A stretch of 64,000 nt of DNA from Roseococcus pinisoli (GTDB taxonomy: Bacteria > Pseudomonadota > Alphaproteobacteria > Acetobacterales > Acetobacteraceae). The notes under the pieces are model-generated. The model saw only the letters and a list, made by a program, of their open reading frames with translations, did no database searches and was not told where the DNA came from. This document shows positions 19,670 to 36,390 of this stretch, in pieces. The stretch is taken from contig NZ_JAHCDA010000002.1 of assembly GCF_018413645.1 (NCBI RefSeq), positions 496,001 through 560,000 on the forward strand, written 5' to 3'. Both the position numbers and the translations under genes were made by a program. The stretch's first letter is position 1. Each line of letters begins with the position of its first letter.

Positions 19670-19698
19670 TGGAGCGGCCCCCAATTCGACCGGACAGG
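19670..19698 (+). repeat. Left terminal inverted repeat of the IS
   Basis: It begins TGGAGCGGCCCCCA and matches the right end over most of 29 bases, with conserved outer TGGAG and inner ACCGGACA blocks. The terminal TG is usual for IS3-family ends. Confidence 0.8.
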
Positions 19699-19742
19699 CG
19701 GCATAGCCTGGAGGGCCTAGGTTCAAGCCTAGGCATGCGCCT

Positions 19743-20131: not shown

Positions 20132-20979
20132 AGGCCGTGGCCAACACGATCGGCGTCGCCAGGTCGAACCTGGCCGACCAGCTCCGGCATCCCGAGCGGC
20201 CGCGGCGCGGCCCCTATCACCGCGCCGAGGACGAGGCCGTCCTGGCCGAGATCCGCACCATTACCGACGCGCGCCCGACCTACGGCTATCGCCGCGTCAC
20301 GGCGCTGCTCAACCGCGCGAGGCGCAGCTCCGGCGAACCACCGCTCAATCACAAGCGCATCTTCCGCCTCATGCGCCTCTCTTCAATGCTTCTTCAGCCC
20401 CACACCGGCAGGCGGCCGATCCGCGCCCACGAGGGCACCGTCGTCGCCCCCACCTCCAATCAGCGCTGGGCTTCCGACAGCCTTGAGATCCCCTGCTGGA
20501 ACGCCGAGGTCGTCCGCGTCGCCTTCGCCATCGACACCCATGACCGCGAGATCATCGCCTGGGTCGCCACCTCCGGGGGCGGCATCTCCGGCGAGATGAT
20601 CCGCGACATGATGCTCGACTGCGTCGAACGGCGCTTCGATGCACTCCGCGCCCCCCAGCCGGTCCAGTGGCTCGCCGACAACGGCTCCGCCTACACCGCT
20701 GGCGAGACCACCGACTTCGCCGCCGCGCTGAACCTCGTTCCATGCTTCACGCCGATCCACAGCCCCGAAAGCAACGGCGTCTGCGAAGCCTTCGTCAAAA
20801 CCCTCAAGCGCGACTATGCCCGCGTGAACCCCAGGCCGGACGCCATCTCCGTCCTGCAGCAGATCCCCACCTGGTTCGAGGACTACAACACCATCCACCC
20901 CCACTCCGGCTTGCGCATGCGCTCGCCGCGTGAGTTCATCGCTCAGCAGTCCACCAACCAAGCCCCATGTCCGGTTTGA
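20080..20979 (+). CDS. IS3-family orfB (DDE transposase catalytic part)
   Basis: OrfB is the integrase-like catalytic half, made as OrfAB by -1 frameshifting. About 299 residues from the slippery site. It has a helix-turn-helix-like part with RPTYGYRRVTALLNR near residue 65, and the rve core with the three acidic residues: Asp in WASDSLEI, Asp in LADNGSAYTA and Glu in HSPESNGVCEAF. The C-terminal NTIHPHSGLRMRSPREF block is typical of the IS2-like group. The frame is intact and ends at TGA 20979 within the right inverted repeat. The start is set at the frameshift site because OrfB is normally not initiated alone. Confidence 0.85.
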   Translation, partial: KKTRVALAVAATRRFPVKAVANTIGVARSNLADQLRHPERPRRGPYHRAEDEAVLAEIRTITDARPTYGYRRVTALLNRARRSSGEPPLNHKRIFRLMRLSSMLLQPHTGRRPIRAHEGTVVAPTSNQRWASDSLEIPCWNAEVVRVAFAIDTHDREIIAWVATSGGGISGEMIRDMMLDCVERRFDALRAPQPVQWLADNGSAYTAGETTDFAAALNLVPCFTPIHSPESNGVCEAFVKTLKRDYARVNPRPDAISVLQQIPTWFEDYNTIHPHSGLRMRSPREFIAQQSTNQAPCPV

Positions 20980-20993: not shown

Positions 20994-21284
20994 GGGCAGC
21001 GCACCCACATTCGGGAGCTCACTCATCCAATCCGAAACCCGAGATAGGGCCGTTCCGAAGTACGATTGAGCACCCAAACGGCACTCGAATGCCGGGAATC
21101 AAGCCTTCGGCCTTCCACCCCGCTCAAACTCCGCATACAAATACTTTGCTTCAAGGGGGAGATGTTCGCCCAACCCTAGCCGTTGCGATCCAGCGTCGTT
21201 CGAGCGCCTGTGACCGAATTGCAGCCGGGCGGTGTGGGGTCGCACGTCCTCCAGGGCGGCACCAGTCGGGTGAGGGAGAGCAGG
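20994..21284. other. Leader region of the BREX operon
   Basis: About 290 bases between the IS end and the first BREX gene, with no gene recognised. It is less GC-rich than the core genome. TACAAA at 21136-21141 could be a -10 element, but no good -35 element is in place. AGGGAG at 21273-21278 is the ribosome site for the first gene. The operon promoter should be here or within the IS. No WYL-type BrxR regulator gene is encoded upstream. Confidence 0.4.
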
Positions 21285-21848
21285 TTGGGGTCGTCTGAAA
21301 TTGATTTTGACTGGCTACTGAAGCTGCGCGTCGCCGTCGCCCGGTGCGGCGAAATGGACCTTGCCCGCTGGTGGAACACGGAACGCCAACTCGGGACCGC
21401 CGGTGCAGCCGTACTCGCGAGAGGTTTCCCTCGTACCCACGACTTTGCGCAGGCGCGAAGCGTAATTGCAGTAGCACGCTCCCGGTGTGCCCAGGTGTTT
21501 GCGTCCCACGAAGCCGCAACCCTCTGGGACCTTCCGGAGGCCCTGGAGGATGCTTTTGACGCGAAGTGGGAAGGCTGGCTGGAGGACGCGACTTCCTGGA
21601 AGCCGTTCTTCGCAAGCGTTGCCGCCATTTCCTCTCCAGATCTGGTTGCAGCTCTACGGCAGCTAGACCTCGTTGAGACATCGGACGTGGTGGCTTTGAA
21701 TGCCGTATTGCCCATCGCTGGTGGTCGTGCAGTCGCTGTGCCGGGCCGCTTTTCCGGCGACCGCCGGGTTGTCGCTCAACTGGCGCTTGGCTTCTCTAAG
21801 GGGGCTCAGGGTTCGCCCGTGGTCCCGTACGCCAGGATCACAGACTGA
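21285..21848 (+). CDS. brxE: BREX protein, BrxE-like
   Basis: 187 residues from TTG 21285, chosen because AGGGAG lies six bases upstream; an in-frame GTG at 21270 is an alternative. The protein is helical, with an early block DWLLKLRVAVARCGEMDLAR, then WWNTERQLG, and no signal or membrane segment. Its place before brxA and its size match BrxE, the small protein that opens type 6 BREX operons; I rely on position, size and a resemblance from memory, not on a defined catalytic motif. Its stop overlaps the brxA start (TGATG), so the two are coupled. Its function in BREX is not known. Confidence 0.6.
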   Translation: MGSSEIDFDWLLKLRVAVARCGEMDLARWWNTERQLGTAGAAVLARGFPRTHDFAQARSVIAVARSRCAQVFASHEAATLWDLPEALEDAFDAKWEGWLEDATSWKPFFASVAAISSPDLVAALRQLDLVETSDVVALNAVLPIAGGRAVAVPGRFSGDRRVVAQLALGFSKGAQGSPVVPYARITD

Positions 21849-22612
21849 TGCCCTGGACGACCGCCTGGTCCAAGCGCCTGTTGAACAATCCCTTAGTCGA
21901 GGAGTTCTACGAGCTTTTCCTCGGCTGGTCCTTCGAGGGAACACTGGAGCAGAACCTCGAGAAGGGGCTCGCCGGCCGTTATGGAAATCTGGGCAAGCTG
22001 CGCGACGTCAGCGCCACGCTCTCCAGCCGCCTCCGTTCAGTGGAATCTGCTCGGGCATTGATAGTTCTGGCAAAGGCGGGCCAGCCGTTCACCGATTGGC
22101 GCGACTGCTACAGGCTCTGGGTCGGGGCCAGTGAAGAGCCATTTCGATCATTTGCTGTGGAGTGGCTATACGCCCAGCGTGCGGAAGGGCGCTATGCAGT
22201 CCGCGTTGAGGATGTTCAGCCATTCGTTGCAGAAATCTGGAAGGCGCGGCGTGCGTCGCGTTCACTCAACGACTATGGCCTGACCCGCACGGCGCGCGAT
22301 CTGATCCGAACCGCTACAAGCCTCGGGATGCTCGTTGGTGGCGGGCCCGCAAGGACCTTCGCTACCGTCGTGCTGTCTGACACGTCGCTCCTCTTCCATG
22401 CACACCTCATCACCGAAATCGAGGGCTCCACGGCAAGACTCGTCGACAGCCCGCTCTGGCGGCTCTCGTACATGTCGCCGGCCGACGTCCACGCAGCACT
22501 CCTTCGTCTGCATCAGTTCAAGCGGCTTCGGTACGACGTGGCAGGCAGCCTACAACAGGTCAGCCTGCCTCATCAGAGCACGCTCAAATTCGCCGAAGGT
22601 TTGGCAGCATGA
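21848..22612 (+). CDS. brxA: BREX protein BrxA (DUF1819 family)
   Basis: 254 residues. BrxA is a small helical, DNA-binding protein of type 1, 3, 5 and 6 BREX systems; it was once called a NusB-like antitermination factor. The family opening is seen (SKRLLNNPLVEEFYELFLGW), followed by RYGNLGKLRDVSATLSSRL near residue 42. It starts one base inside the brxE-like stop and overlaps the brxB start by ATGA, showing tight translational coupling. Its presence before brxB-brxC-pglX is the standard BREX order. Confidence 0.85.
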   Translation: MPWTTAWSKRLLNNPLVEEFYELFLGWSFEGTLEQNLEKGLAGRYGNLGKLRDVSATLSSRLRSVESARALIVLAKAGQPFTDWRDCYRLWVGASEEPFRSFAVEWLYAQRAEGRYAVRVEDVQPFVAEIWKARRASRSLNDYGLTRTARDLIRTATSLGMLVGGGPARTFATVVLSDTSLLFHAHLITEIEGSTARLVDSPLWRLSYMSPADVHAALLRLHQFKRLRYDVAGSLQQVSLPHQSTLKFAEGLAA

Positions 22613-23184
22613 TCGAGTTGGAGAGGCGTCTGCGGGATAGCCTTGAGCCCATCCTAGCGATGTCTGACCCGCGGGAGCGCATCAGCGCATACCACGATAT
22701 GCCTTACGCCATCTTCCGATACGACCCTGAGTTCGAGTTTGAACTTCGTGGGGCAGTCGCCCGTCTGCGCACTCGCCTGGAGAACGGCGGCAAGCGAGTT
22801 ACGTCCATCTCGCTTGCTCAGTGCCTGCACACTGCCATGGCGGCAGCTAGGCCACTAGAAGACTGGTTTGCAGTCGAGCGGGAAGCCGGCGTCGATGAAA
22901 CCGTTCAAACCATCACGAACCTTCTCGAAGATTATCAACCGCTTGTTAATATTGTCGCAGAGCGAATGCCGGAAAATGCCGATCCGACGAAAGATGTAGT
23001 CTTCATCGTTAGGACTGGGGCACTTTTTCCTGCATATCGGACATTCTCTCTACTTGAACAGCTAAAGGGCAGAGTAGCTGCCCCGACTGTGCTGTTCTAC
23101 CCGGGAGACCTCGACGGAGCAGCCGGCCTTCGCTTCATGGGGGTTTTGGATGCAGAACATAATTATCGCCCCAAGATCTTCTGA
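22609..23184 (+). CDS. brxB: BREX protein BrxB (DUF1788 family)
   Basis: 191 residues, the normal length of DUF1788 proteins. The conserved C-terminal half is clear: VVFIVRTGALFPAYRTFSLLEQL near residue 140-160, then PTVLFYPGDLDG and LRFMGVLDAEHNYRPKIF at the end. BrxB is essential for defence in tested type 1 systems, but its biochemical role is not settled; it is thought to join the BrxC/PglX/PglZ complex. It overlaps brxA by ATGA and precedes brxC by 14 bases. Confidence 0.9.
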   Translation: MIELERRLRDSLEPILAMSDPRERISAYHDMPYAIFRYDPEFEFELRGAVARLRTRLENGGKRVTSISLAQCLHTAMAAARPLEDWFAVEREAGVDETVQTITNLLEDYQPLVNIVAERMPENADPTKDVVFIVRTGALFPAYRTFSLLEQLKGRVAAPTVLFYPGDLDGAAGLRFMGVLDAEHNYRPKIF

Positions 23185-23198
23185 CGGATATCCAGCGC

Positions 23199-26100
23199 AT
23201 GAGCCAAATCTCGAGCCTGTTCGCCAGTGACATCGGTCGTCGTATCGAGGAAGTGATTAAGGTCGACCAGGACGCCGCCGAAGTAGTGGCCGGGGAGATT
23301 GAAGACTATATTGCAACGGATGCGATCAAGCGACACTTCCGCGACATTCTCGAACGCTATCTTGAAACACCACAGAAGCCCCACGAGGGAATAGCGATCT
23401 GGGTTTCGGGATTTTTCGGATCGGGAAAGTCTAGCTTCGCAAAAATGCTGGGCCTGTCTATCGGCAACAGGGATGTTCTCGGACTCGGAGCAGCCGAGCG
23501 CTTATCCAAGCGCGTTGGCGACAACAAGCTTACCGTGGTCTTGAAAGGCATCAACGAGCATATTCCAACTCATACGGTAATTTTCGACGTCTCTACCGAC
23601 CGGGGAATCCGGTCCGGCAACCAGATGATGACGGAGATCATGTACCGTCTCTTCTTGGAAAGTCTTGGCTATGCAAAGGATCTTGACCTGGCAGAGCTAG
23701 AGATTGACCTCGAGGCAAAGGGACGTCTCACCGAGTTTGAGGCGGCCTTCCAGAAGCTGCATGGAAAAGCGTGGAGCGCCGAAAAGGGGATGCTCGCGTT
23801 TGCGCTGGGTCAGGCAAGCGCAACGCTCAATCTGATGATGCCCGAAGTCTTTCCGCAGAAGGACTCTTGGGCTCGCGGTCGCCCAAAACTCGACATTACT
23901 CCCGGCCGCCTCGCTGACCGCATCGTCGAGCTAATGAAGCGGCGTAAGCCGGGCAACTCGTTGATGTTCGTCGTGGACGAGGTCGGCCAGTTTGTCGCGC
24001 GCGACGTGCAGAAGATGCTCGACCTGCAGGCGATTGTGCAGCAGCTCGGTGTGAAAGGGCGCGGCAAACACTGGATCGTGGTCACGTCACAGGAGAAGCT
24101 CAACGAGCTCGTCGGTGGCCTCGACGATAAGCGGATCGAGCTGGCCCGGCTAATGGATCGGTTCCCGCAGGAGCTGCAGGTTCACCTCGAGCCGTCAGAC
24201 ATCTCTGAGGTGACCAGTCAGCGGGTGCTGCGCAAGAACGCTGCGGCGGAAGCTGAGCTGGGGAGCCTCTTCGACGAGCACCGCGCCAGGCTCGCCCTAC
24301 ACTCGAGGCTCACCGCCGACATTACCCTTCCGGACCTGGGGCGGCAGGCTTTTGTGGACCTGTACCCGCTCCTGCCGTACCAAATTGTCCTAATCATCGA
24401 CATCGTCTCTGGTCTCCGCACACAGGGCGGCGCCAGCAAGCACGTAGGCGGTGCGAACCGAACGATCATCAAGCTCGCACAGCAGCTTCTCATCAACCCA
24501 TCAACAAAGCTTGCCGAAAAGCCAACCGGCACCCTCGTTCGGCTGGATCACGTCTATGATCTGATCGACGGCAACATTGCGTCCGACATCCGCGCCAAGA
24601 TCGCATCCATTCCGCAGCGGGTTTCGCACCCAGACGCGCAGGCGGTGGCGAAGGTCGTCTGTCTGCTTCAGTTCGTGAAGACAGTTCATCGCACACCCGA
24701 GAATATTGCCGCCGCCTTGCTTGATAAGGTCGACGGAGAATCTCGCCTGACCGCGGTCAAAGAGGCTCTAGCCGAGCTCGAGAAGGCGCTGATGGTGCGT
24801 CTGGGTGAGGGCGGCTATCGCATACCGACGCCCGCCGAAGATGATTGGGATCAGACGCGTACCGGGATCGACCTAAGGGGCGCAGATCGGAAGCGAATCC
24901 TCACCGAGATCTTGAGTGGCTTTTGGACTCCACAACCAGTTTTCAGCCTGGGTGATACCAAACAGTTTCGTGCTGGTTTGATGGTCAACGGCACGGAAGC
25001 CATTGCGGGCGATATCACCTTTAACTTGCAACTCGCCGACGATGCAGCGGAGGCCGCGAAGCTCGCGGACGAGCTTCGGCGCCGCAGTCAGCTCGAACAG
25101 AAGAGCGTCTTCTGGGTCGCGACGCTCGACGAAGATATCGAGCGTGAGGCGCGCGAGGCGTATCGCTCGTCCCAAATGATCGAGCGAAAGTCGCGCGGCG
25201 CGGTGACGGCGAACGAGACCACGCTGATCGCCGAAGAGAAGGTTCGCCAGAAGCGCCATCAGGACGAGTTGAGACGGCGCCTCCGGACAGCGTGTCTATC
25301 TGGCCAGGTCTTCTTCCGAGGCAACGACCGCTCCCCCGAACCGACAGTGACCGATGTCGGGAGGGCTGCATCGGCCGTACTCGGCCAGGCACTTCCAACA
25401 GTCTACGACCGTTTCCAGGAGGCCTCTGCCAAGGCTCCAGAAATCCGAAAGGGCCTGGACGCGCTGCTTACCGCGGCAAATCTCTCCGGCCTCCCCCCTG
25501 TCTTCGCGCAGCTCAATCTGCTGCGTGACGAGAGGGGAAAGCCTGTGTTCCGTACTGACTTCGCGCCGTTATCGGAGATCATGGGACAGATCGAAGCCAA
25601 GGCGAACTACGGCGAGCAGGCGACCGGCAAGTTTCTTGAGGATGAGTTCGCCAAGGCGCCGTTTGGCTGGGACCTCGAGGCTGTTCGTCTCTTTGCCATT
25701 TGCCTGCTGCGGGCCGGCCGTGTGGAGGCGGTGAGTAAGGGTCAGACGATCGAATCAGCAACCACCGTCCAGGCCAAAGAGTGCTTCACCAACAACAACC
25801 TGTTCCGCTCGGCTAACTTCCGCCCCAAAAAGGGTATCGACTTTGCTGTCCTTGCCGAAGCCGCGACGCATTTCAGCGACACCTTCGGCAACGAGATTCG
25901 GGAGCTGAGCGCCTCGACTCTCGCGGCTCAGCTTCGCACCGAAGTGGAGCGCCACGAGGAGCCGCTCGGCCGCGTCCTCGGGGTCCTGCGAGAGGCGCGC
26001 TTGCCCGGTACGGAGATGCTGGACAATGCGCTGAGCCAGATGCGGGCGATCCGAAAGGCAGGCGATGAAAGTGCAATCTCGACCTTCCTTGCCGGCCACC

Positions 26101-26735
26101 GATCCATCAAGGACGCCATCCACCGGGGGGCTGAGCTCGACAAGGTGCTGACCGAGCCAGCACTGCGCGATATCGAGCGGGCGAGAGCTGCACTCGCCCG
26201 GATGCCGGCACTCCGTGGAGAAGCCGACCTCGATCCCATGATCGCCACCCGCGGAACCGACCTGGCAGACCTCATCCAGCGTGAGACCTTCTTTCGCGAC
26301 CTGGCCACCATCGATCAGTCGGCCGCCGTGATCGATGCGGAGTTCCAACGCCGGCTCAGCGAAGCACTGGATGCTCGGGTTGGCGCGCACCTCACCGCAC
26401 TCGAAGTGCTGCATGCGACTCCGGGTTGGGAGCGTCTGGATGTGGCACAGCAAGAGGAAGTCTCGCGGTCCTTGCGCCTGGGTGCGGAGCGGGCCGGGGC
26501 ACCCGAGAATCTGGCTCATCTACGGTCGGAAACCGAGGCCTGCGCCGGGCGCCTGTCTGCGGCTATCTCAAGGGTCCATGAGCTGCTCGAAGGGGAGCGG
26601 CTGGCCTCGGTTTCCGTTGCGCCCTTCTTCGCGGGCGGCATCGAGACGGAAGAGCAACTTGACCAGGCCATCGCCGGATTGCGGGACGCATTCTCTCGGC
26701 TGATAGGCGAAGGCAAGAGGATCATCGTTCGATGA
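23199..26735 (+). CDS. brxC: BREX P-loop ATPase BrxC (PglY-like)
   Basis: 1178 residues, close to the usual 1,200. BrxC is a large cytoplasmic ATPase needed for both phage restriction and methylation by BREX. The Walker A motif is GFFGSGKSSFAKMLG (residues 71-85) and the Walker B motif LMFVVDEVGQF lies near residue 255. A long middle and C-terminal region (500-1178) is helical and rich in charged residues, with no enzyme motif. ATG 23199 gives the standard opening SQISSLFASDIGR. It ends 10 bases before pglX. Frame and key residues are intact. Confidence 0.93.
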   Translation: MSQISSLFASDIGRRIEEVIKVDQDAAEVVAGEIEDYIATDAIKRHFRDILERYLETPQKPHEGIAIWVSGFFGSGKSSFAKMLGLSIGNRDVLGLGAAERLSKRVGDNKLTVVLKGINEHIPTHTVIFDVSTDRGIRSGNQMMTEIMYRLFLESLGYAKDLDLAELEIDLEAKGRLTEFEAAFQKLHGKAWSAEKGMLAFALGQASATLNLMMPEVFPQKDSWARGRPKLDITPGRLADRIVELMKRRKPGNSLMFVVDEVGQFVARDVQKMLDLQAIVQQLGVKGRGKHWIVVTSQEKLNELVGGLDDKRIELARLMDRFPQELQVHLEPSDISEVTSQRVLRKNAAAEAELGSLFDEHRARLALHSRLTADITLPDLGRQAFVDLYPLLPYQIVLIIDIVSGLRTQGGASKHVGGANRTIIKLAQQLLINPSTKLAEKPTGTLVRLDHVYDLIDGNIASDIRAKIASIPQRVSHPDAQAVAKVVCLLQFVKTVHRTPENIAAALLDKVDGESRLTAVKEALAELEKALMVRLGEGGYRIPTPAEDDWDQTRTGIDLRGADRKRILTEILSGFWTPQPVFSLGDTKQFRAGLMVNGTEAIAGDITFNLQLADDAAEAAKLADELRRRSQLEQKSVFWVATLDEDIEREAREAYRSSQMIERKSRGAVTANETTLIAEEKVRQKRHQDELRRRLRTACLSGQVFFRGNDRSPEPTVTDVGRAASAVLGQALPTVYDRFQEASAKAPEIRKGLDALLTAANLSGLPPVFAQLNLLRDERGKPVFRTDFAPLSEIMGQIEAKANYGEQATGKFLEDEFAKAPFGWDLEAVRLFAICLLRAGRVEAVSKGQTIESATTVQAKECFTNNNLFRSANFRPKKGIDFAVLAEAATHFSDTFGNEIRELSASTLAAQLRTEVERHEEPLGRVLGVLREARLPGTEMLDNALSQMRAIRKAGDESAISTFLAGHRSIKDAIHRGAELDKVLTEPALRDIERARAALARMPALRGEADLDPMIATRGTDLADLIQRETFFRDLATIDQSAAVIDAEFQRRLSEALDARVGAHLTALEVLHATPGWERLDVAQQEEVSRSLRLGAERAGAPENLAHLRSETEACAGRLSAAISRVHELLEGERLASVSVAPFFAGGIETEEQLDQAIAGLRDAFSRLIGEGKRIIVR

Positions 26736-26745
26736 GCCGCAACTA

Positions 26746-28680
26746 GTGGACAAAGATACCAGGGGCGCGCTTCAGACCGCCACCCAGAGGGCCCGCAGGC
26801 TGCTTGAGGAGGAGTTCCGCGCGCAGCTTGAGGGCGACCACGATATCATGGCGAATGGGCAGGTGCCGCCGCGTGGCGGTCCGCATCTGTCGGCACGGCA
26901 GCAGACCCTGCGCGACCGCATCGTGGCTGCCATAGACCATAAGCGTGCAGCGGGCATGAAGCCTACAGAGGCAGTGGCGGACTACCTCCGCGACGCAGCC
27001 TTCACGACGCTGAACCGCTTTGTCGCACTCAAGATGCTGGAAGCGCGTCGGCTCGTGCAGGAGTGTGTCACGCGCGGTGATGCCTCATCTGGTTTTGCCG
27101 AATTCTGCGGGCTAGCGCCGGGCATGCGTCTGACGGATGGCGGGGGATACCGCCTCTATCTGGAGTGTGTGTTCGACGAGCTTTCGACCGAGGTGAAGGT
27201 TCTGTTCGACCGGCGCGATCCAGCTTCGGCGCTTTGGCCCAGGCGCCAAACCCTTGATGCGCTGTTGGCTGTGCTCAATGCAGAGGATCTAGCTGGCGTC
27301 TGGACTGAGGATGAGACGATCGGCTGGGTGTACCAGTATTTCAACGGCCAGGACGAACGCAGGCAGATGCGTGACGAGAGTCAGGCACCGCGCAACAGCC
27401 GCGAGCTTGCAGTCCGGAATCAGTTCTTTACGCCCCGCTATGTGGTGCAATTCCTCGTAGACAACACCCTTGGCCGCATGTGGCTAGAGATGAGAGGTGG
27501 CACCTCACGGCTGGTGGGACGCTGCGAGTACCTCGTTCGGCCAGAGGGCGATGGCTTCCGTGCCCGTCCGAAGAAGGATCCGCGCGATCTGCGGATCCTC
27601 GACCCTGCCTGCGGCTCCGGACATTTCCTCCTCTACGCCTTCGACCTCCTGTTGGAGATCTACGAAGAGGCCTGGGAGGAGCCGCAGGACGCACCCAGAA
27701 GCATCACCACTGGGCGGACGCTGCGCGAGGATTACGCGACGGTCGATGATCTCCAGCGCGCGCTGCCAACATTGATCCTTGAGCACAACCTCCACGGCGT
27801 GGACATAGATCCACGCTGCGCCCAGATCGCCGCACTTGCGCTTTGGCTTCGGGCACAGCGGGCATGGGGCAATGTTGGCCTGCGAGCAGCGGCACGTCCA
27901 CGCGTGCGTCGGACACACATCGTAGTGGCAGAGCCAATGCCAGGCGATCGGGTCATGATGGATGAATTTGCCGCACGCCTCGAGCCGCCGCTGTTGCGCG
28001 ATTTGTTTCGTAGGATGGTGGGCGAAATGCGTCTGGCCGGGGAGTTGGGCGCGCTGCTGCGGGTGGAGGACGCGATTGCCGAGGACCTACGGCAAGCGCG
28101 CTCAGCCTTCGTTTCGCAACAGCAAGCGCCGAGCGTGTTTCTTCCTGGCCTAGAGCCGACACAGCGGCAGCCCTCGTTGAATCTCTCCGGGATCGATGAC
28201 GACGATTTCTTCCATGAGGCTGAGGCCCGCATGGCGGATGCGCTCCAGGCTTTTGCGGAGGTCGCAACTGGTGCCGCAGCGACACGCCGGCGCCTCTTCG
28301 CCGATGACGCGACACAGGGGGTCGCGCTTATCGAACTGCTTCGGGGACGGTTCGACGTGGTGTTGATGAACCCCCCCTTTGGCTCTGGCAGCCTTCCTGC
28401 GAAAGCGGCGTTCGATCGAGCCTATCCGCGAACCAAAATCGACATGTATGCAGCTTTTGTCGAGCGAGGCATTCAACTTCTGCAGCCACGCGGCTTACTC
28501 GGCGCCATAACGTCGCGCACTGGATTTTTCCTGTCGACCTTTCAGCGGTGGCGGGAAGAAGTATTGCTTCGCGATGCAACACCGACCGTTTTTGCCGATC
28601 TCGGCTTTGGCGTGCTCGATAACGCAATGGTCGAAGTGGCGGCATACTGCCTCGAAAGACGCGGGGAGACCGCGCCATGA
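26746..28680 (+). CDS. pglX: BREX adenine methyltransferase PglX, N-terminal (catalytic) half of a split gene
   Basis: 644 residues from GTG 26746. PglX methylates the host genome at N6-adenine to mark self DNA. The first 100 residues match the PglX lead (ATQRARRLLEEEFRAQLEG). The SAM motif I is DPACGSGHF (from about residue 286) and the catalytic N6-adenine motif IV is NPPF (from about residue 542). Single-chain PglX proteins are about 1,200 residues; this one stops after the methyltransferase core (AAYCLERRGETAP) at TGA 28680, which overlaps the ATG of the second half. It has the active site but not the target-recognition half, so it probably needs the next protein. Confidence 0.9.
   Translation: MDKDTRGALQTATQRARRLLEEEFRAQLEGDHDIMANGQVPPRGGPHLSARQQTLRDRIVAAIDHKRAAGMKPTEAVADYLRDAAFTTLNRFVALKMLEARRLVQECVTRGDASSGFAEFCGLAPGMRLTDGGGYRLYLECVFDELSTEVKVLFDRRDPASALWPRRQTLDALLAVLNAEDLAGVWTEDETIGWVYQYFNGQDERRQMRDESQAPRNSRELAVRNQFFTPRYVVQFLVDNTLGRMWLEMRGGTSRLVGRCEYLVRPEGDGFRARPKKDPRDLRILDPACGSGHFLLYAFDLLLEIYEEAWEEPQDAPRSITTGRTLREDYATVDDLQRALPTLILEHNLHGVDIDPRCAQIAALALWLRAQRAWGNVGLRAAARPRVRRTHIVVAEPMPGDRVMMDEFAARLEPPLLRDLFRRMVGEMRLAGELGALLRVEDAIAEDLRQARSAFVSQQQAPSVFLPGLEPTQRQPSLNLSGIDDDDFFHEAEARMADALQAFAEVATGAAATRRRLFADDATQGVALIELLRGRFDVVLMNPPFGSGSLPAKAAFDRAYPRTKIDMYAAFVERGIQLLQPRGLLGAITSRTGFFLSTFQRWREEVLLRDATPTVFADLGFGVLDNAMVEVAAYCLERRGETAP
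28663..28679 (+). promoter_or_regulatory. Ribosome binding site and ATGA junction that restart the second PglX half
   Basis: GGGGAG at 28663-28668 sits eight bases before ATG 28677, inside the end of the first pglX gene. The ATG overlaps the stop as ATGA. Good spacing and complementarity indicate true initiation and coupling, not a chance frameshift, although a ribosomal slip cannot be excluded. Confidence 0.65.
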
Positions 28681-31379
28681 AAACGATCTTTCTTCGTGCC
28701 CTCGAGGCTGATGACAAAGCTACTGCCTTGCGCGCGGCGATCGATGCGCCTCGCGTCGGAACCGCGCGGTTTGAGATGGCCACCGAGAGTTTCTCGGCTG
28801 TGCCAGGCTCCCCGTTTTCGTACTGGGTTAGCGACGAAGTTCGGGGGTGTTTCACTAAATTTCCAGCTTTTGAGAATGAGAGACGGTTCGCACGGCAAGG
28901 CGGCGTCAACGGCGACGACTTCCGGTGGCTACGCCTTTGGTTCGAAGCTGGCGCCGCGCAGAAGCGAGGCAAGTTTTTCCCTATCGCCAAGGGCGGTAAG
29001 TTCTCGCCGTTTTACGCGGATCTTCTGCTTCAGGGTTGGTGGGATCCGAGACGAAACACTTTCTGGGCGTTCACCGGGCTTCCTCATAGGCCATCTCTCA
29101 AGCCAGCGTCGTTCGAGTTTTACTTTCGTGCCGGCCTCACCTGGCCGCGGAGGACAGATGGCCTTTCGCTAAGAGTAATGCCCCTGGGATGCCTCTTTGC
29201 AGACAAGGGTCCTGCTGCGTTCGTCGACGGCGACGACGTTGATGAACTGTTGGCGCTTGCAGCCATCACTAACAGTCAGGCGTTTTCTCTGCTCGTGTCG
29301 ATGCAGCTTGCTCGCACGGAGCTTGCACAGTCGTTTGAGGTCGGCCTTATCCAGAACACGCCTGTTCCTGTTCTTAACTCAGATGAGCGCTCTCAGCTGG
29401 CATCGCTTGCCAAACGCTCATGGTCTCTTACGCGGGCCGTGGACGCTCGTGCAGAGACATCGCACGCGTTCATCGTGCCCGCGTTGCTGCAAGTTAGCGG
29501 TAGTGATTTAGATGCCCGCGCGAGGGCTTATGCTGATCGTCTCGGCGACATTGAGGTCGAGCTTAAATCGAACCAAGCGCAGATCGATGCAATATGCTTT
29601 CGAATATACGAAATCGACAAAGCTGACCGAGGCGCCGTGAAGACCGGCATTGTCGCGCGCGCTGAAGTGGCAGGCGATGCTGTCGACGGCGACGTTGATG
29701 AAGACGCGCTTGATGCGGACAGTGAAGCGGACGCTGGCACTGGTACCTCGGCCCTCATCATCGAGTTGATGTCATGGGCGATGGGTGTCGCACTTGGTCG
29801 ATTTGACCTTCGTCTCGCAACCGGCGTGCGTCCGCTTCCCATCGAGCCTGAGCCATTTGACCCACTTCCGACGGGTTCGCCCGGGATGCTGGTGCGCGAG
29901 GACGGATTGCCTTGCGAGCGGGCCCCTCAGGGTTACCCAATCAACCCAGCGTTTGGTGAGATCCTGGTCGACGATGCGGGCCACCCGCGTGATCTGACAG
30001 CGGCCCTACAGGCTGTTTTCCGTCAGGTCTTTGCCACAGAGGCCGAAGCGCGATGGGAGGAGGCGGTTCAGTTTCTCACCCTAAACGGCCAGGGCTTCCA
30101 ACGATGGCTTGCCGTCGATTTCTTTGACTGCCACCTGAAGCGTTACTCGAAGAGCCGGCGGAGGGCGCCGATTTACTGGCAGCTCAGCGTTCCCTCAGGG
30201 CAGTACAGCGTCTGGCTTTACGCACACCAGGTCACGCGAAATACCTTGTTCGATCTGCAGAAGGACGTGGTTGCGCCGAAGCTTGCCCACGAGGAAAATC
30301 GGCTGGCCGACCTGCGCGCGGAGGCTGTGACGGACCTCTCTGCTGCAAAGCGCCGCAAAGTTGAGGCGCAAGAGCGGCATGTCGAGGAATTGCGCGTCAT
30401 TCTCGAAGAAGTTCGTCGAGTGGCTCCGCTATGGAGCCCGTTCCTTGATGACGGTGTAGCTCTGGCGATGGCGCCGCTGTGGCGGCTGGTTCCACAGCAC
30501 AGAGCCTGGCAGCGCGAGCTCAAATCCCGATGGGATGATCTCATCGACGAGAAATACGAATGGGCGCGAATGGCCATGCATCTTTGGCCAGAGCGTGTGG
30601 TGCCGAAATGCACGACGGATCGCAGCCTCGCTATTGCACATGAGCTTGAGGATGCCTTCTGGGTCGAAGGTCTCGATCGCCGCTGGCGGCAGCGAGGCTC
30701 TATCGATTCGACAATACGATACCTGGAGGAGGGCCTCCTCTCGGAATCCCTTCGCGCTACAGTGATGGACCTCCAGCGTTTCGCGCGGCAGCACATCGCC
30801 ACGCAGAGCGAAGCAGGATGGTGGATGGACCTGAAGTCAGGTCGGCACGACGACACTCCGCTGGCGCTGGCCCTGTGGCCAGAACGTGTCCTGCAGAGGG
30901 CTCGCACTCAGCCAAGCTTGCTTAGCGGCCTTGGACTCCCGCTCCCGGCACGCGGCTTCGATGACCGCGCTCTCGCCGCTCTGCTCAGGCGGTACCGGCC
31001 TCGGCATAGCGAGGTAGACCTGGAAGTGCTCGAGGCCTTCTGTGCCACCTTCGGGAACGCCGCGGCCTGGGAAACGCGGTGGGCTGATTTCGACATCGGT
31101 CGACTGGACGAGCAGCCCCTTGCACGCTTCCTGTACCCGCGTCGCGTCCTGGCCCGGGCGCTCACCGACCATGCCTTTGCCGCGGGCCATGACCTGGCGC
31201 GATGGTTCTGGCTCAACGCGCCTGCTGGTCCACGCCGACTCAAAGAACCCGAGGAAGAGGTCAGGATCGCTCTTGCGGAGCGTGATAGGCCCGCGATGAA
31301 GGCTGCGCTCAAGGCCTTCCTTGAAGCACCCGTGGCGCCGGGCTCGGCGCGGCGGGAACGGAGGGCAAGATCAGCATGA
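28677..31379 (+). CDS. BREX PglX, C-terminal half of a split gene (target-recognition and extension)
   Basis: 900 residues with no methyltransferase motifs. The first 330 residues look like the target-recognition part of PglX that normally follows the catalytic core (MKTIFLRALEADDKATALRA continues the PglX sequence logically). An Asp/Glu-rich linker (about 332-355, GDAVDGDVDEDALDADSEAD) follows. The C-terminal 300 residues hold three related blocks near 632, 729 and 815 with L-(W/Y)-P-x-R-V, and a charged coiled-coil-like stretch near 545-580. Together the two halves total 1,544 residues, longer than usual PglX. It overlaps pglZ by ATGA. Confidence 0.75.
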   Translation: MKTIFLRALEADDKATALRAAIDAPRVGTARFEMATESFSAVPGSPFSYWVSDEVRGCFTKFPAFENERRFARQGGVNGDDFRWLRLWFEAGAAQKRGKFFPIAKGGKFSPFYADLLLQGWWDPRRNTFWAFTGLPHRPSLKPASFEFYFRAGLTWPRRTDGLSLRVMPLGCLFADKGPAAFVDGDDVDELLALAAITNSQAFSLLVSMQLARTELAQSFEVGLIQNTPVPVLNSDERSQLASLAKRSWSLTRAVDARAETSHAFIVPALLQVSGSDLDARARAYADRLGDIEVELKSNQAQIDAICFRIYEIDKADRGAVKTGIVARAEVAGDAVDGDVDEDALDADSEADAGTGTSALIIELMSWAMGVALGRFDLRLATGVRPLPIEPEPFDPLPTGSPGMLVREDGLPCERAPQGYPINPAFGEILVDDAGHPRDLTAALQAVFRQVFATEAEARWEEAVQFLTLNGQGFQRWLAVDFFDCHLKRYSKSRRRAPIYWQLSVPSGQYSVWLYAHQVTRNTLFDLQKDVVAPKLAHEENRLADLRAEAVTDLSAAKRRKVEAQERHVEELRVILEEVRRVAPLWSPFLDDGVALAMAPLWRLVPQHRAWQRELKSRWDDLIDEKYEWARMAMHLWPERVVPKCTTDRSLAIAHELEDAFWVEGLDRRWRQRGSIDSTIRYLEEGLLSESLRATVMDLQRFARQHIATQSEAGWWMDLKSGRHDDTPLALALWPERVLQRARTQPSLLSGLGLPLPARGFDDRALAALLRRYRPRHSEVDLEVLEAFCATFGNAAAWETRWADFDIGRLDEQPLARFLYPRRVLARALTDHAFAAGHDLARWFWLNAPAGPRRLKEPEEEVRIALAERDRPAMKAALKAFLEAPVAPGSARRERRARSA

Positions 31380-33952
31380 TGGCCGCACCAGTCACGCCCC
31401 CATCACATCCTTTGCATGCCTACATCGCTGGGCAGATCGCAGGGTACCTGAAGGATCGCCGCATCGTGGTCATCTACGACCCGCGCGAGGAGTTGCGGCC
31501 TTTCTTTTCCGAGCTCTCGGGCAACGCCCCGCCAGGGATCCTCGTGGCAGTGCTGGTCGGCACACGCCCTGCGAAGCTCTGCGTGTTCGACGGCTCCTTC
31601 TTTCAGGTTCGCCTGGCTGTCGAGCCGATCACCGAAGGCGAGACACCGGAAGAGACCGTCATCTACGTCCCTGGTTGCGATCGGGATGACGATGGATCAC
31701 TGCTCATGGAACTGGAAAAGGCGGGTACCTGTTACCGCCCGCCCGCGCTGCGGCAGTTTGCCCGCAACGTGCTGCGCCGGCGCACAACCGATGTGGCCAT
31801 CGACGCGATGCTCCGGGCTGAGACGCTTACCTATTCAGATCTGGCGCGCATGGCAGCCGATGAAGGTGAGGTCGGCCTGCCACCGCTTCTCAGGGGCATG
31901 TTTGGCGGAGCCGATAGCCAGACGATCCTGGCCAGCTGGATTGCGGAAACGGGACGCGACGCTGAGATCGAGACGAAGGGCGCCGTGGGCGAACTGCGCG
32001 ACATCATCCGCGCGAAGATTGGCTTGGTGGTGCCTGACGACGCTGCACTTCCTCGCATGAGGGCAATCACGGCACGCCACCTTCTTGCCAACGAGTTCCG
32101 TCTCGATCTGGCGGGCGAAGCGCCTTCCGGGGGCCCGCTAGGGCAGGTTCAGGGGCTTGAGTCGAAAGACCAGGAGAAGACCGTCCGGGAGGTGGCGCGA
32201 CGCCTTCGTGAGCGGCACCCAGAAACCTACATTGGGCTCGCCGACCGAGTTGAAGGGGAACTCGGGCTGCTCGCAGAGACATTCCAGGGCGCGGCTCTGG
32301 GCGCTATCGACACGTTCCGCTTTGAAGAGCGATCCGTCCTTGCCGCCTGCTTCGCGCTGGTCGCTTCTGATCGGTTCGAGGAGGCGCGCGCTCTTTTGGA
32401 CGGCCGCGAGCACAGTTTCTGGATCGATCGCGATGTGCTGCGGAAAACGCTCTGGGAAGCGTGTCGGTTGATGATCGAGCTCGGCCTCGCCGCCATGCGG
32501 GCCGGGGTGACAATTGCAGCGACGAACGATCGATCTGCCGACTGGGTCCAGCGGTATGTGGAGGCCGACCAGGGCTGGTATCGCCTGGACCGCGCGCAGC
32601 GACGCCTCGAAACCATCGCTCCCGAGGTGGAGGAGGAGATGGACGAACGCGCATTGGCTCGTGTCCGGGCGATCTATGACGACGTTGTCCGCCGCATGGC
32701 AGAGGGTTTCCTCAAGGCGCTCGATAAAGACGGATGGATGGTTCCCGACACCCTGCACCAGACCCGCATCTGGTCTGAGGTCGTCGTGTCCTGCGCGCGC
32801 CCGGTCGCCTACGTTCTGGTTGACGCGATGCGCTACGAGATCGGCATTGAGCTGTTCGAGCGCATCGAGCGGTTCGGAGAAGTACGAATCCGGCCAGCGA
32901 TCGCGGCGCTTCCTTCCATTACCCCTGTTGGAATGGCGGCCCTTCTGCCGGGCGCTTCTGCAGATTTTTCGATCGTTACGCAGGGTGCCAGGTTTGGCGC
33001 CAAGGTGGGCGGATCATTTTTGCCGGACCTTTCCTCGCGGCAGGCATTAGCCCGAGCTCAGGTCCCATGCTTGGTCGATCTGTCGCTCGATGAGGCGCTG
33101 TCGGGCAACGCGAAGAGCCTCCAGAAGAAGATCGCCGACGCCAAGGTGGTCATCATACGCTCGGCCGAGATCGACGGCGCTGGCGAGAACTCGAGCACTC
33201 TCTACGCACGCGCCATTATGGAGCGTGCCGTCGAGGACATCGCGCGATGCCTCCAGCGTCTCGCCGCATCCGGCATCCAGGATGTGGTGGTTGCCGCGGA
33301 CCACGGCCACCTGTTCTTCGCTGCCGACCGTGAGGCGGCCATGCGTCTGGAAGCGCCGGGCGGCGACACTGTTGACCTACACCGCCGCTGTTGGATCGGT
33401 CGTGGCGGCGCCACACCTCCAGGCAGCATCCGAGTTCAGGGCGCCAGGCTGGGCTACGCGACCGACCTCGACGTCGTGGTGCCCGCGAGCACGTCGGTCT
33501 TCAAGGCGGGCGGCAGCCTTGCCTACCATCATGGGGGTGCATCGCTGCAGGAGCTGGTCATTCCCGTTCTAACCGTGAAGCTGAAGGCCCGTGCACCAGC
33601 GTTGACCGAGAAGAACGCAGTGACCGTCACGCACGACTTTGATGCGGTAACAAACCGGATTTTCTCTCTCCACATTGAGCTCGGAAGCGGAGGCAAGGGT
33701 CTATTCGACGCCGCGCGGACCGTTAGACCAGTGGTGCTGGCAGGTGAACGTATCGTCGCTAAGGCGGGAGTCGCGGTTGGTGCGGTGCTTGAAGATGGAC
33801 GTCTCACCCTTGAGCCCGGGAAGCGTGCGAACGTCGGCTTCATCCTGACCGACGACACCGTCACCTCGGTACGCATCCAAATACTAGACGCCGAAACAGA
33901 CGCGGTTCTTTACACGTCTGCCAAGGAAGTTCCCGTACGGCTTGGAGTTTGA
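31376..33952 (+). CDS. pglZ: BREX alkaline-phosphatase-superfamily protein PglZ
   Basis: 858 residues. PglZ is the common marker of all BREX systems; its C-terminal domain has the alkaline phosphatase fold, and relatives show metal-dependent phosphodiesterase or nuclease activity. The metal-site blocks are visible: YVLVDAMRYEIG near residue 480 and VVAADHGHLFF near 640 (Asp-His-Gly-His). The region before residue 450 is helical, and the last 200 residues are a beta-rich tail. Start ATG 31376 overlaps the stop of the second pglX gene (ATGATG; the ATG at 31379 is possible too). It ends three bases before brxL. Confidence 0.92.
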   Translation: MMAAPVTPPSHPLHAYIAGQIAGYLKDRRIVVIYDPREELRPFFSELSGNAPPGILVAVLVGTRPAKLCVFDGSFFQVRLAVEPITEGETPEETVIYVPGCDRDDDGSLLMELEKAGTCYRPPALRQFARNVLRRRTTDVAIDAMLRAETLTYSDLARMAADEGEVGLPPLLRGMFGGADSQTILASWIAETGRDAEIETKGAVGELRDIIRAKIGLVVPDDAALPRMRAITARHLLANEFRLDLAGEAPSGGPLGQVQGLESKDQEKTVREVARRLRERHPETYIGLADRVEGELGLLAETFQGAALGAIDTFRFEERSVLAACFALVASDRFEEARALLDGREHSFWIDRDVLRKTLWEACRLMIELGLAAMRAGVTIAATNDRSADWVQRYVEADQGWYRLDRAQRRLETIAPEVEEEMDERALARVRAIYDDVVRRMAEGFLKALDKDGWMVPDTLHQTRIWSEVVVSCARPVAYVLVDAMRYEIGIELFERIERFGEVRIRPAIAALPSITPVGMAALLPGASADFSIVTQGARFGAKVGGSFLPDLSSRQALARAQVPCLVDLSLDEALSGNAKSLQKKIADAKVVIIRSAEIDGAGENSSTLYARAIMERAVEDIARCLQRLAASGIQDVVVAADHGHLFFAADREAAMRLEAPGGDTVDLHRRCWIGRGGATPPGSIRVQGARLGYATDLDVVVPASTSVFKAGGSLAYHHGGASLQELVIPVLTVKLKARAPALTEKNAVTVTHDFDAVTNRIFSLHIELGSGGKGLFDAARTVRPVVLAGERIVAKAGVAVGAVLEDGRLTLEPGKRANVGFILTDDTVTSVRIQILDAETDAVLYTSAKEVPVRLGV

Positions 33953-33955
33953 TGA

Positions 33956-35989
33956 ATGAGTACGCCAATAAGGGACGAGCTCGACAACAAGGTCAATCGC
34001 ATCTTCGCCGGGAAGGTGGTGCGGAAGGATCTGGTTCGGCGCGTCAAGGTCGGCGCCAACGTCCCGGTTTTCGTCCTCGAATTTCTACTTGGAAAATATT
34101 GTGCCTCATCGGATGAGCTAGCCATCCAGATGGGTTTACAGGTCGTCAATCAGACACTAGCCGAGAACTATATTCGGCCTGACGAATCGATGAAGGCGCA
34201 AAGCAAAGTCAAGGAAAAGGGGCGCTGGACATTTATCGATAAGGTCAAGGTTCGACTGACCGATTCCGACTATTGGGCGGATGTGACAAATTTTGGGAAC
34301 CGGAACGTCCATATTCCTGACCAGTATGTCCGGGATTATGAACGCCTGCTCACCGGTGGCATCTGGGCGCAGGTCGATATGCGCTTCGAGTACGATGAGG
34401 AAGGCAAGGGGAAGAATCCCTTTTGGATCGACAAGCTGACGCCCATTCAGGTCGCCACCTTCGCCCTTGAGGACTACCAGCGGCTGCGTCGCGAGTTCAC
34501 CACCGACGAGTGGATCGACCTGATGCTGCGCAGCATGGGTTACGAGCCCAATGGCATGACGCGAAGGCTCAAGTTCTTGTTTCTGACCAGGCTGATTCCG
34601 CTGTGTGAGCGCAACTATAACCTAGTGGAGCTCGGGCCTCGTGGGACAGGCAAGAGCTACGTGATTCAGGAAGTATCTCCCTACGCGGCACTCATGACCG
34701 GCCCCACTACGGTGGCCAATCTATTCGGTCATATGGGTGGTCGGACCAAGGGGCTGGTGCAAATCTGGGACGTCGTCGGTTTTGATGAGGTCGCTGACCT
34801 GGAGAAGATGCCGAAGGAAGTCATCACGACGATGAAGACCTACTGCGAGTCTGGGTCTTTTCAGCGAGGTCAGGAGGCAGCTTCCGGCGAGGCAAGTGTT
34901 GCGATGTTTGGCAACACCAATCAACCCATCGAAGTGATGGTTCAATCCGGTCATCTTTTTGAGCCAATGCCGTCTGTCATCCGAGACGACATGGCGTTCA
35001 TCGACCGCCTACATTTCTATCTCCCAGGATGGGAGATCCCGAAAATGCGGAACGATCTGTTCACAGATCACTACGGCTTTGTAGTCGACTACCTCGCTGA
35101 GGCGCTTCGAGATCTTCGCAAGCATAACTTCACGGAGGTGGTTGACCGACACTTCGGGATGGGATCTCACCTGGTCACCCGCGACCGCAAGGCCGTCAAG
35201 AAGACCGTTTCGGGTTTGATGAAAATCCTTCATCCGCATGGGGATGCCACAAAGGACGAGATCGCAGAGCTACTCGAATTCGCGATGGAGGGCCGGCGCA
35301 GGGTGAAAGAGCAGCTCAAAAAGATGGGCTCGTTCGAATATTACCATACTTCGTTCAGCTACACGGATAGCGACACGGGCGAAGAGCGATTCGTGGGTGT
35401 CCCCGAGCAAGGCGGGCGCAATCTCATATCTTCAGAGCCGATGCCACCGGGCACCGTTTACACGGCGAGCGTCGGTCAAGATGGGACCGTCGGTATGTTT
35501 CGCGTTGAAGTGTCAGTCGCAGCGGGTGGGGGCAAGTTGCGCACTGCCGGCGGAGTAAACGGAGCCACCAAGGAATCGGTCAGCCGAGCGTTCGGGTACA
35601 TGCTTGCGAGGAAAAACGAACTGGGAATCGGCAAGGAAATCGATGTGTCGGACCTTCACGTGGAGGTCATCGATTTGCTGAACAATCGAGTTGAGGGGGA
35701 GATCGGGCTAGCCTTCCTCATCGCGGCCTTCTCCGCACTCAAGAAGGCGCCCGTCACCGCGGCGTTGCTAGTTCTCGGCGACCTCAGCATCCAAGGGAAC
35801 ATCAAGGGCGTGAGGTCCTTGGTAGAGCCGCTCCAAGTCGCCATGGACAATGGGGCGAAGCGCGCCCTGATCCCGATCGAGAACAAGAGAAGCTATCTCG
35901 AGGTCAGCGGCGATGTGATGGAGCACGTCGATCCAATTTTTTTCGGGGATCCAAAGACAGCTGCCTTCAAGGCTTTGGGCTTGAACTGA
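33956..35989 (+). CDS. brxL: BREX AAA+ protein BrxL (Lon-like)
   Basis: 677 residues, standard for BrxL, the effector-type AAA+ protein of type 1 and type 4 BREX; it forms rings on DNA and is needed for phage restriction. The AAA+ part has Walker A ELGPRGTGKSYVIQ near residue 226-238 and a Walker B-like block VVGFDEVADLEKMP near 273. The C-terminal part (about 480-677) resembles the Lon protease domain (GDLSIQGNIKGVRS near 608, NGAKRALIPIENK near 632), but the Lon Ser-Lys dyad is not found: NRVEGEIGLAFL stands where DGPSAG is expected. It closes the operon. Confidence 0.93.
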   Translation: MSTPIRDELDNKVNRIFAGKVVRKDLVRRVKVGANVPVFVLEFLLGKYCASSDELAIQMGLQVVNQTLAENYIRPDESMKAQSKVKEKGRWTFIDKVKVRLTDSDYWADVTNFGNRNVHIPDQYVRDYERLLTGGIWAQVDMRFEYDEEGKGKNPFWIDKLTPIQVATFALEDYQRLRREFTTDEWIDLMLRSMGYEPNGMTRRLKFLFLTRLIPLCERNYNLVELGPRGTGKSYVIQEVSPYAALMTGPTTVANLFGHMGGRTKGLVQIWDVVGFDEVADLEKMPKEVITTMKTYCESGSFQRGQEAASGEASVAMFGNTNQPIEVMVQSGHLFEPMPSVIRDDMAFIDRLHFYLPGWEIPKMRNDLFTDHYGFVVDYLAEALRDLRKHNFTEVVDRHFGMGSHLVTRDRKAVKKTVSGLMKILHPHGDATKDEIAELLEFAMEGRRRVKEQLKKMGSFEYYHTSFSYTDSDTGEERFVGVPEQGGRNLISSEPMPPGTVYTASVGQDGTVGMFRVEVSVAAGGGKLRTAGGVNGATKESVSRAFGYMLARKNELGIGKEIDVSDLHVEVIDLLNNRVEGEIGLAFLIAAFSALKKAPVTAALLVLGDLSIQGNIKGVRSLVEPLQVAMDNGAKRALIPIENKRSYLEVSGDVMEHVDPIFFGDPKTAAFKALGLN

Positions 35990-36300: not shown

Positions 36301-36390
36301 TGGCGGACAGGGTGGGATTCGAACCCACGGTGGGGTCACCCCCACGCCGGTTTTCAAGACCGGAGCCTTAAACCGCTCGGCCACCTGTCC
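36301..36390 (-). tRNA. tRNA-Ser (anticodon TGA)
   Basis: A 90-base class II tRNA on the minus strand. Acceptor arms GGACAGG and CCTGTCC pair, the CCA end is encoded, and the T arm holds GGTTCGAATCC. The anticodon loop is CTTGAAA on a CCGGT/ACCGG stem, so the anticodon is TGA, reading UCA-type serine codons. The long variable arm (GTGGGGGTGACCCCAC) is typical of tRNA-Ser. Its 3' end faces the BREX region; tRNA 3' ends are common integration sites. Confidence 0.95.

Follow-up and report, generated by a model that had tools for sequence, protein, structure and literature searches.

In the available portion of PMC12839542, types 5 and 6 of the bacteriophage exclusion (BREX) systems are treated as subtypes of type 1, BrxL is specific to types 1 and 4, and BrxE is quoted as exclusive to type 6; the accessible part of PMC12707154 describes the target recognition domain as an integral part of the BREX methylase. 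Here we analyse a locus that breaks both rules, by carrying brxE together with brxL and by encoding pglX in two genes. It lies in a stretch of 64,000 nucleotides from Roseococcus pinisoli (contig NZ_JAHCDA010000002.1, positions 496,001 to 560,000; hereafter the window, in whose numbering its coordinates are given) and consists of eight open reading frames, all on the + strand, between 21285 and 35989, in which brxE stands in front of the type 1 order brxA-brxB-brxC-pglX-pglZ-brxL. From the comparison of these sequences with their relatives, we consider it likely that this is a phage-defence BREX operon of an old, coherent, BrxE-marked sub-lineage, that its PglX has two subunits, and that the recognition block of this PglX is exchangeable.

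The genes of the operon are tightly packed (Table 1): brxE and brxA overlap by one base (TGATG), brxA/brxB, pglX-N/pglX-C and pglX-C/pglZ meet in ATGA overlaps, and gaps of 14, 10 and 3 bases precede brxC, pglX-N and brxL, respectively. An earlier reading of the window from its letters alone, the first-pass annotation, had described eight genes in one direction with ATGA or few-base junctions and a type 1-like end that lacks brxD, brxHI and a WYL regulator. The coordinates and the PADLOC, Pfam and NCBIfam matches bear out this layout; BrxL is of the Lon type, and its residues 7-676 of 677 match the solved BrxL 8emc (E 4.5e-187, 627 bits); and phmmer (E<=1e-4), with one type 6 locus and one type 1 locus as the source of the seeds, found no match to brxD, brxHI or the WYL regulator in 19001-38500. 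A search of the whole genome for brxD was also empty, although such a result counts as weak evidence; for brxHI and the WYL regulator the search covered the locus only. The BREX superfamily core is present, with PglZ and BrxC above the cut-offs of PF08665 and NF033441. BrxC contains GFFGSGKS, which we take to be the P-loop, PglX-N contains DPACGSGHF and NPPF, presumably methyltransferase motifs, and PglZ contains DAMRYE, DHGHLF and HHGG. A promoter and terminator scan of 20900-36300 gave fewer sites than the shuffle means.

The expectation that type rules would label this locus only in part is confirmed by the model scores. No type-specific NCBIfam model for PglZ, PglX or BrxE is reached: PglZ scores 264 of 400 bits on the BREX-6 model NF033443, 134 of 270 on BREX-1 type A and 91 of 400 on type B, PglX-N scores 393 of 500 on the BREX-1 PglX model, and BrxE scores 31 of 80 on the BREX-6 equivalog NF033448. 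Nevertheless, the first gene is, judging from its family matches, a divergent BrxE, as the first-pass annotation had proposed. It passes the NCBIfam family model NF033447, and a profile of the window-type BrxE matches the true type 6 BrxE (hhalign probability 90.7, E 1.2e-6, 87 columns) as well as the BrxE of a second clade, X, introduced below (probability 94.6, E 7.2e-8). The stretch GEMDxAxWWN is invariant in an alignment of the window protein and ten relatives. The PADLOC BrxE model is weak on these proteins (window 26 bits over 68 residues, L008 23 bits, X BrxE of L031 unmatched), a search against the PDB by sequence gave no match up to E 1, and a BrxE search of plasmids gave no match.

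Relatives of the operon were taken from a BrxC scan of genome contigs with flanks of 10 kb, which yielded 14 loci in 13 genomes. We refer to the clade and layout of the window kind as W and to the second clade with brxE and brxL as X, both names being from this analysis; the W set also takes in the window, contig mates and L038, a draw in the phylum of L014. The arrangement brxE-brxA-brxB-brxC of the W kind is found in 14 loci in 14 genomes, with brxE first in all of them. The tail is covered in nine of the 14, and each of the nine has brxL (that of L038 being truncated by the end of its stretch) and none has a match to brxD or brxHI; the order brxE to brxL, which the first-pass annotation had suggested searching for, is thus recurrent. 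In Roseomonas ponticola the contig ends after the first codons of brxL. W hosts include Filomicrobium, Bradyrhizobium, Microvirga, Rhodopseudomonas, a Rhizobium metagenome-assembled genome (MAG), Nonomuraea and Planctomycetota MAGs, so that the clade ranges over Alphaproteobacteria, Nonomuraea and Planctomycetota, and two fragment sets come from myxobacterial MAGs. All 13 genomes reached by BrxC alone have a BrxE over the cut-off; that of G604 sits in a separate X locus, and this genome has a W remnant only, lacking brxE in the stretch read. L019 was rejected as a W locus and is in no tree: it is what is left of a degraded W locus, next to a distinct X locus in the same genome. A BREX locus on a Hymenobacter plasmid (L023, 254-14259) lies in many short frames, is decayed or poorly sequenced, and was excluded.

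The X loci (L029-L031, L034) come from three genomes of the window's family and a Thiohalocapsa MAG; all four have brxE, and the three in which the stretch is covered have split pglX and brxL. True type 6 loci, with brxD-brxHI and no brxL match, number five (L036, L037, L039, L040, L041). L029 has an extra gene at 6479-8647, between pglX-C and pglZ, the start of which presumably resembles a DUF262/GmrS-type protein; the type 1 locus L025 has an annotated DUF262 gene. BrxE is rare in all groups sampled. It was over the cut-off in 4/200 genomes of the window's family (its own included, the other three being X), in 1/398 of its phylum (its own), in 2/200 of the order of Nonomuraea (one W, Nonomuraea itself, and one type 6), in 2/297 of the order of Bradyrhizobium (both W and already in the set) and in 4/246 of the phylum of L014 (three W and one type 6), where one W genome has an extra type 6-like brxE fragment at a contig end. 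The BrxE family search found nothing in 14 control genomes, and a PglZ search of viral contigs gave no relative. BrxC was over the cut-off in 11 of 299 Pseudomonadota genomes, and among these 11 BrxE was over the cut-off only in that of the window.

The phylogenetic trees separate the history of the core from that of the effector. We built a PglZ tree (35 rows, type 2 outgroup) and a second one without the two long rows L058 and L024, a BrxC tree (40 rows) and a BrxL tree (24 rows, midpoint root). W has support of 100/100 in the PglZ, BrxC and BrxL trees, and in PglZ and BrxC it is placed outside the type 1 rows that were sampled. In PglZ, W, X and type 6 are each supported at 100/100 and group together at 81/80, rising to 92/98 once the two long rows are removed; in BrxC the branch that sets W, X and type 6 apart from type 1 has 99/100 and is starred. 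The BrxL of W adjoins the Lon-type BrxL of type 1 loci (100/98, midpoint-rooted), and the BrxL of X groups with the other type 1 BrxL group, with a long-branch warning. The X BrxL of L031 passes TIGR02688 and not TIGR02653, and because it matches the Lon-type model only at positions 3-486, its C-terminal domain differs; by resemblance it may be the HKD type mentioned in the available part of PMC12839542. Since the core groups W, X and type 6 together while BrxL differs, brxE is tied to the core rather than to any one effector. We therefore regard it as probable that brxE marks an old core lineage in which the effector has been exchanged, and only the effector looks shared with type 1. Because the W core is a deep clade that has kept one layout across several phyla, W is best described as a settled sub-lineage.

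These data bear on two alternative explanations. The first-pass annotation had viewed the locus as a mosaic subtype, a type 6-like front joined to a type 1 end. Its observation of a brxE front with a type 1-like brxL stands, and the results that would have spoken against it, PglZ and BrxC inside the sampled type 1 and a first gene without BrxE homology, were not obtained; a fresh hybrid is not supported, for the W core is a separate deep clade (100/100) found in several phyla, and an old, coherent sub-lineage probably takes its place. A true mosaic, in which recombination joined a type 6 front (brxE to pglZ) to a type 1 brxL, could account for W BrxL lying beside the Lon-type BrxL of type 1 while W joins type 6 and X in BrxC and PglZ, and BREX-6 is the best type-specific model for the window PglZ. 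We nevertheless consider it unlikely: BrxC and PglZ of W are distant from those of type 6 proper (the window PglZ stays below the BREX-6 cut-off, whereas true type 6 PglZ scores 1059 bits), the W BrxL is itself a deep clade, so that any joining would be old and then inherited as a unit, and the distribution of brxL is explained as simply by its loss in type 6 as by its gain in W. Alternatively, the locus could be a plain type 1 BREX preceded by a stray BrxE-like gene. The gene content after brxE is the same as in type 1, the one-piece PglX proteins of the W loci L008 and L013 pass the BREX-1 PglX model (580 and 567 bits, cut-off 500), two type 1 loci have a split pglX as well, and types 5 and 6 are themselves type 1 subtypes in the classification cited above. 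This explanation is disfavoured and appears quite improbable, given that PglZ and BrxC fall outside the sampled type 1, that brxE is first in all 14 W loci covering that end, and that BrxE is over the cut-off in none of the ten other BrxC-positive Pseudomonadota genomes (G303 has a match of 21.5 bits, below it).

The division of pglX into two genes was seen in the first-pass annotation and left uninterpreted; we judge it to be the more informative feature. Split pglX is present in nine loci including the window (six W and three X), and in all nine the cut is at the same place, following the last methylase motif of PglX-N (...VEAAAYCLE or similar). The start of pglX-C is an ATGA overlap in six loci, TGATG in L010 and TAATG in L030, and in R. 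ponticola it is GTGA or an ATG a few codons earlier. On the one-piece PglX of the type 1 locus L025 (E. coli plasmid, 1222 residues), the nine PglX-N proteins end at 610-612 and the PglX-C alignments run from 621 or later. Residue 638 of 644 in the window PglX-N aligns with residue 610 of the 1225-residue methyltransferase 8c45, residue 639 aligns with 612 of the L025 PglX, and residues 37-292 of the window PglX-C align with 647-893 of E. coli BrxX (9ewz). According to the available part of PMC11842806, the methylase and recognition domains are linked by a flexible hinge at 638-675. The cut is thus approximately 20 residues before the hinge; a cut inside the E. coli BrxX hinge was ruled out by this alignment, and the first residues of PglX-C are probably the final segment of the methylase domain.

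In the W loci L008, L013, L014 and L015 pglX is in one piece, and in L006 and L012 it is incomplete. In L038 (7327-15010) a one-piece pglX stands in tandem with a split pair; the copies are 84-100% alike per 50 residues over the first 450 residues and mostly 24-50% in the recognition stretch, perhaps giving two specificities in one BREX locus. At its C-terminus the window pglX-C (30750-31379) has approximately 200 extra residues with repeated LWPERV-like units, an extension that is present in R. ponticola and absent from L009. In type 1, pglX is in one piece in 11 of 13 informative loci, L028 and L052 having been excluded because the stretch ends within the gene; L028 (2855-9603) is a type 1 locus on a Nostoc plasmid with annotated DarT and ADP-ribosylglycohydrolase genes between pglX and pglZ. 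The idea that type 1 pglX is always in one piece is refuted by L056 and L057. L056 (6510-13585) has intact open reading frames (ORFs) aligned to 1-636 and 640-1216 of the L025 PglX with three ORFs between them, which presumably resemble an AlbA/Schlafen-type protein, an AAA ATPase and a TOPRIM protein, and in L057 (1-2992) the first pglX piece (to 632) is succeeded by a related ORF that runs as far as the contig end. This type 1 split is at the hinge, approximately 25 residues later than the W/X cut. Since the cut is later and the clade another one, separate PglX halves would probably have arisen at least twice.

Within W and X, the split seems to follow the recognition part. On the BrxC tree (29 of the 40 rows, without L012, L033, L034, L038, which has both states, L052, L056, L057 and L058-L061) the split state changes five times. 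On the PglX-N tree (26 rows, without L012) it also changes five times, at least four of these changes being forced by starred branches, and on the two PglX-C trees (25 and 24 rows, without L012 and L006 and, in the second, also without L015) it changes once. The PglX trees include six type 1 and five type 6 rows, and the recognition-domain tests used 18 chosen rows. The simplest account of these topologies would be a single origin of the W/X split within the recognition part, which then carried it along.

The comparison of the window with R. ponticola bears directly on exchange. BrxA, BrxB, BrxC and PglZ are 96-99% identical (BrxC 99%), BrxE is 90% and PglX-N 88% identical, and PglX-C is 22-58% identical per 50 columns over approximately the first 480 residues and 84-96% after. 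Synonymous divergence (dS) is 0.08 in brxC, 0.11 in brxA, 0.16 in pglZ, 0.54-0.67 in pglX-N, 2.2-3.9 in residues 1-480 of PglX-C and 0.30 behind them; this pattern suggests replacement rather than fast selection. The ratio of nonsynonymous to synonymous divergence (dN/dS) is 0.12 in PglX-N, 0.19 at the end of PglX-C and below 0.3 in all pglX parts, and from these low ratios we conclude that purifying selection acts on both halves and that both are kept as genes. A value of 0.93 for brxL was set aside, as the last approximately 39 codons of the R. ponticola frame are unlike the window; there (L007, 10576-10693) homology stops approximately 68 codons into brxL and approximately 117 unmatched bases run to the contig end, a possible insertion. 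The relatives of the window recognition domain do not follow those of the core: identity is 53% with Nonomuraea (BrxC 56%), 43% with the X locus L030 (BrxC 29%), 39% with Bradyrhizobium, 38% with Microvirga, 38% with R. ponticola (BrxC 99%) and 25-32% with five one-piece W PglX proteins. Among the X loci, L029 and L031 are 75% identical in PglX-N and 48% in PglX-C. In the available part of PMC11341690, type I specificity subunits are given as the structural match of the C-terminal part of PglX. From the sequence comparisons above, PglX-C apparently is an exchangeable, HsdS-like recognition cassette. That the break in pglX is instead a recent disabling mutation or assembly error in a decaying system, or a phase-variable off state, is the least probable explanation of all: interruption and phase variation of pglX have been reported elsewhere (PMC9716671 and PMC11341690, in the parts available), but the same cut is found in nine loci from separate assemblies with an overlapping or nearby start each time, dN/dS is low on either side, PADLOC has stand-alone models of both halves, and the type 1 locus L056 has intact separate halves too.

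Several results weigh against our reading of an old BrxE-marked sub-lineage with a mobile recognition half. Type 1 is represented by 11 to 14 rows and type 5 was not targeted in the sampling, and BrxC lineages beyond types 1, 6, W and X contribute 4 rows. The PglZ support for W, X and type 6 together is unstarred, and in BrxC two long branches meet where X and type 6 join (95/94). The likeness of BrxE between lineages is limited to approximately the first 95 residues. The single change of split state on PglX-C is seen in 82% of bootstrap trees, and in 68% with the recognition domain alone; without the first 100 residues PglX-C gives two changes, with one change in 20% of bootstrap trees, and approximately unbiased (AU) tests reject no opposite grouping (p 0.089, 0.243 and 0.491; 0.167). 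Finally, with L056 and L057 the split of pglX occurs outside the brxE lineage as well.

Starting from the gene content, the sub-lineage, the recurrent split point and the replacement of the recognition block, we infer the following biochemistry, largely by analogy with type 1 BREX and the HsdM/HsdS pair: (i) the two PglX halves would be translated across the ATGA overlap and would meet close to where the methylase domain ends, PglX-N binding S-adenosylmethionine (SAM) and methylating and PglX-C picking the site, (ii) a BrxB-BrxC-PglX-PglZ complex would methylate host adenine at a short asymmetric site and detect unmethylated sites on entering DNA, (iii) PglZ and the BrxL motor would then be called on to stop phage replication, and (iv) exchange of the PglX-C recognition block would change the site that is protected and attacked. 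Given that BrxE accompanies the BrxC/PglZ core and is combined with three different effectors, it most likely acts in the sensing and modifying core and not with the effector. A more far-reaching model, to which we give even chances, is that BrxE is a core subunit of an ancient lineage that has used three plug-in effectors, that PglX-C moves between phyla and retargets the system in one step, and that the halves became separate independently in type 1.

The operon lies in a variable block bounded by a tRNA gene. DNA shared with the R. ponticola BREX locus starts at 20994, just past the end of an insertion sequence (IS) upstream of brxE, the transposase of which we take to be IS3-like. The same-genus genome G175, in which BrxE was not found, is collinear with the window at 4240-13892 and 36299-40897 and has approximately 2.7 kb in place of 13893-36298, and the right edge of the block coincides with the end of tRNA-Ser at 36301. 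In the same-genus stretch L076 (6672-16335), approximately 9 kb lie between tRNA-Ser and the flank that is contiguous with the tRNA in the window. With different inserts at this gene in the window, L076 and G175, tRNA-Ser (tga) looks like a hot spot of integration for the genus. Pfam found no phage or island integrase among six block frames, exact copies of tRNA-Ser as attachment (att) sites elsewhere in the window were absent at 14 bases or more (two of 12 bases were found), and no 12-base inverted repeats bound the IS.

Table 1. The BREX operon and neighbouring features of the window
Feature	Position	Strand	Evidence and remarks
brxE	21285..21848	+	TTG start fits homologues; longest open frame from 21183; NF033447 137 bits (cut-off 40)
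brxA	21848..22612	+	PADLOC PDLC02454, 260 bits
brxB	22609..23184	+	PF08747 67 bits; PDLC02459 205 bits
brxC, AAA+ ATPase	23199..26735	+	NF033441 799 bits (cut-off 400); best PADLOC score 1939; W clade 100/100
pglX-N, N6-adenine methyltransferase half	26746..28680	+	PDLC02526 1081 bits over 637/640 positions; Eco57I PF07669
pglX-C, target recognition half	28677..31379	+	PDLC02532 656 bits
pglZ	31376..33952	+	PF08665 61 bits (cut-off 25); PDLC02559 1221 bits; PDB PglZ 9zn5 E 3.8e-20
brxL, Lon-type	33956..35989	+	TIGR02653 993 bits (cut-off 628); PADLOC 961 bits
Transposase, orfB-type frame	19633..20979	+	rve, HTH_Tnp_1; orfA-type HTH frame 19823-20131; upstream, not part of the system
tRNA-Ser (tga)	36301..36390	-	ARAGORN; right edge of the variable block carrying the operon; not part of the system

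The sequences of the W kind are already known as such. The PADLOC models PDLC02559, PDLC02526, PDLC02532 and PDLC02476 match the window proteins over their full or almost full length (PDLC02532 over residues 3-700 of 900), PADLOC has stand-alone models for each pglX half (640 and 682 positions) and separate PglZ models for W (PDLC02559), X (PDLC02561) and type 6 (PDLC02548). These models were made from sequences collected by 2023 and carry the names PglZ, PglX and BrxC only, and we found no description of the sub-lineage. In the available portions of the literature on brxE with BREX, a search that left most subscription journals outside, neither brxE and brxL in one operon nor a two-subunit PglX is described.

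The modular design of these loci has several consequences. As brxE remains associated with the core when the effector differs, the function of BrxE becomes testable. The natural two-part PglX offers a simple system in which catalysis can be studied apart from site choice, and PglX-C genes that are in tandem or have been replaced may serve as a direct read-out of recognition rules; if our interpretation is correct, a stand-alone PglX-C would, like HsdS, allow the operon to switch to a new target site in a single step. In annotation, such loci are misfiled when BREX is typed from the effector gene alone.

Among the known systems, BREX type 6, as in Aulosira laxa plasmid3 and Pseudanabaena galeata pPg_02, shares with W the first position of brxE and the order brxE-A-B-C-pglX-pglZ, and its PglZ and BrxC group with W and X; unlike W, it ends in brxD-brxHI and has a one-piece pglX in the five loci seen, and W remains below the BREX-6 cut-offs for BrxE, PglX and PglZ. 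BREX type 1, as in E. coli, Acinetobacter and Paracoccus, shares with W the order brxA-B-C-pglX-pglZ-brxL and the Lon-type BrxL, but no brxE was seen there, some loci have a WYL regulator, and PglZ and BrxC belong to another clade. Clade X has brxE, a pglX cut at the same place, and brxL, as W does, and differs in a BrxC that is 29-32% identical to that of the window and in a BrxL with another C-terminal domain. Finally, type I restriction-modification systems resemble W in that the methylase and recognition parts are on separate, coupled genes (HsdM and HsdS); in contrast to these systems, W is without HsdR, and its PglX-C has one recognition domain and would act together with BrxB, BrxC and PglZ.

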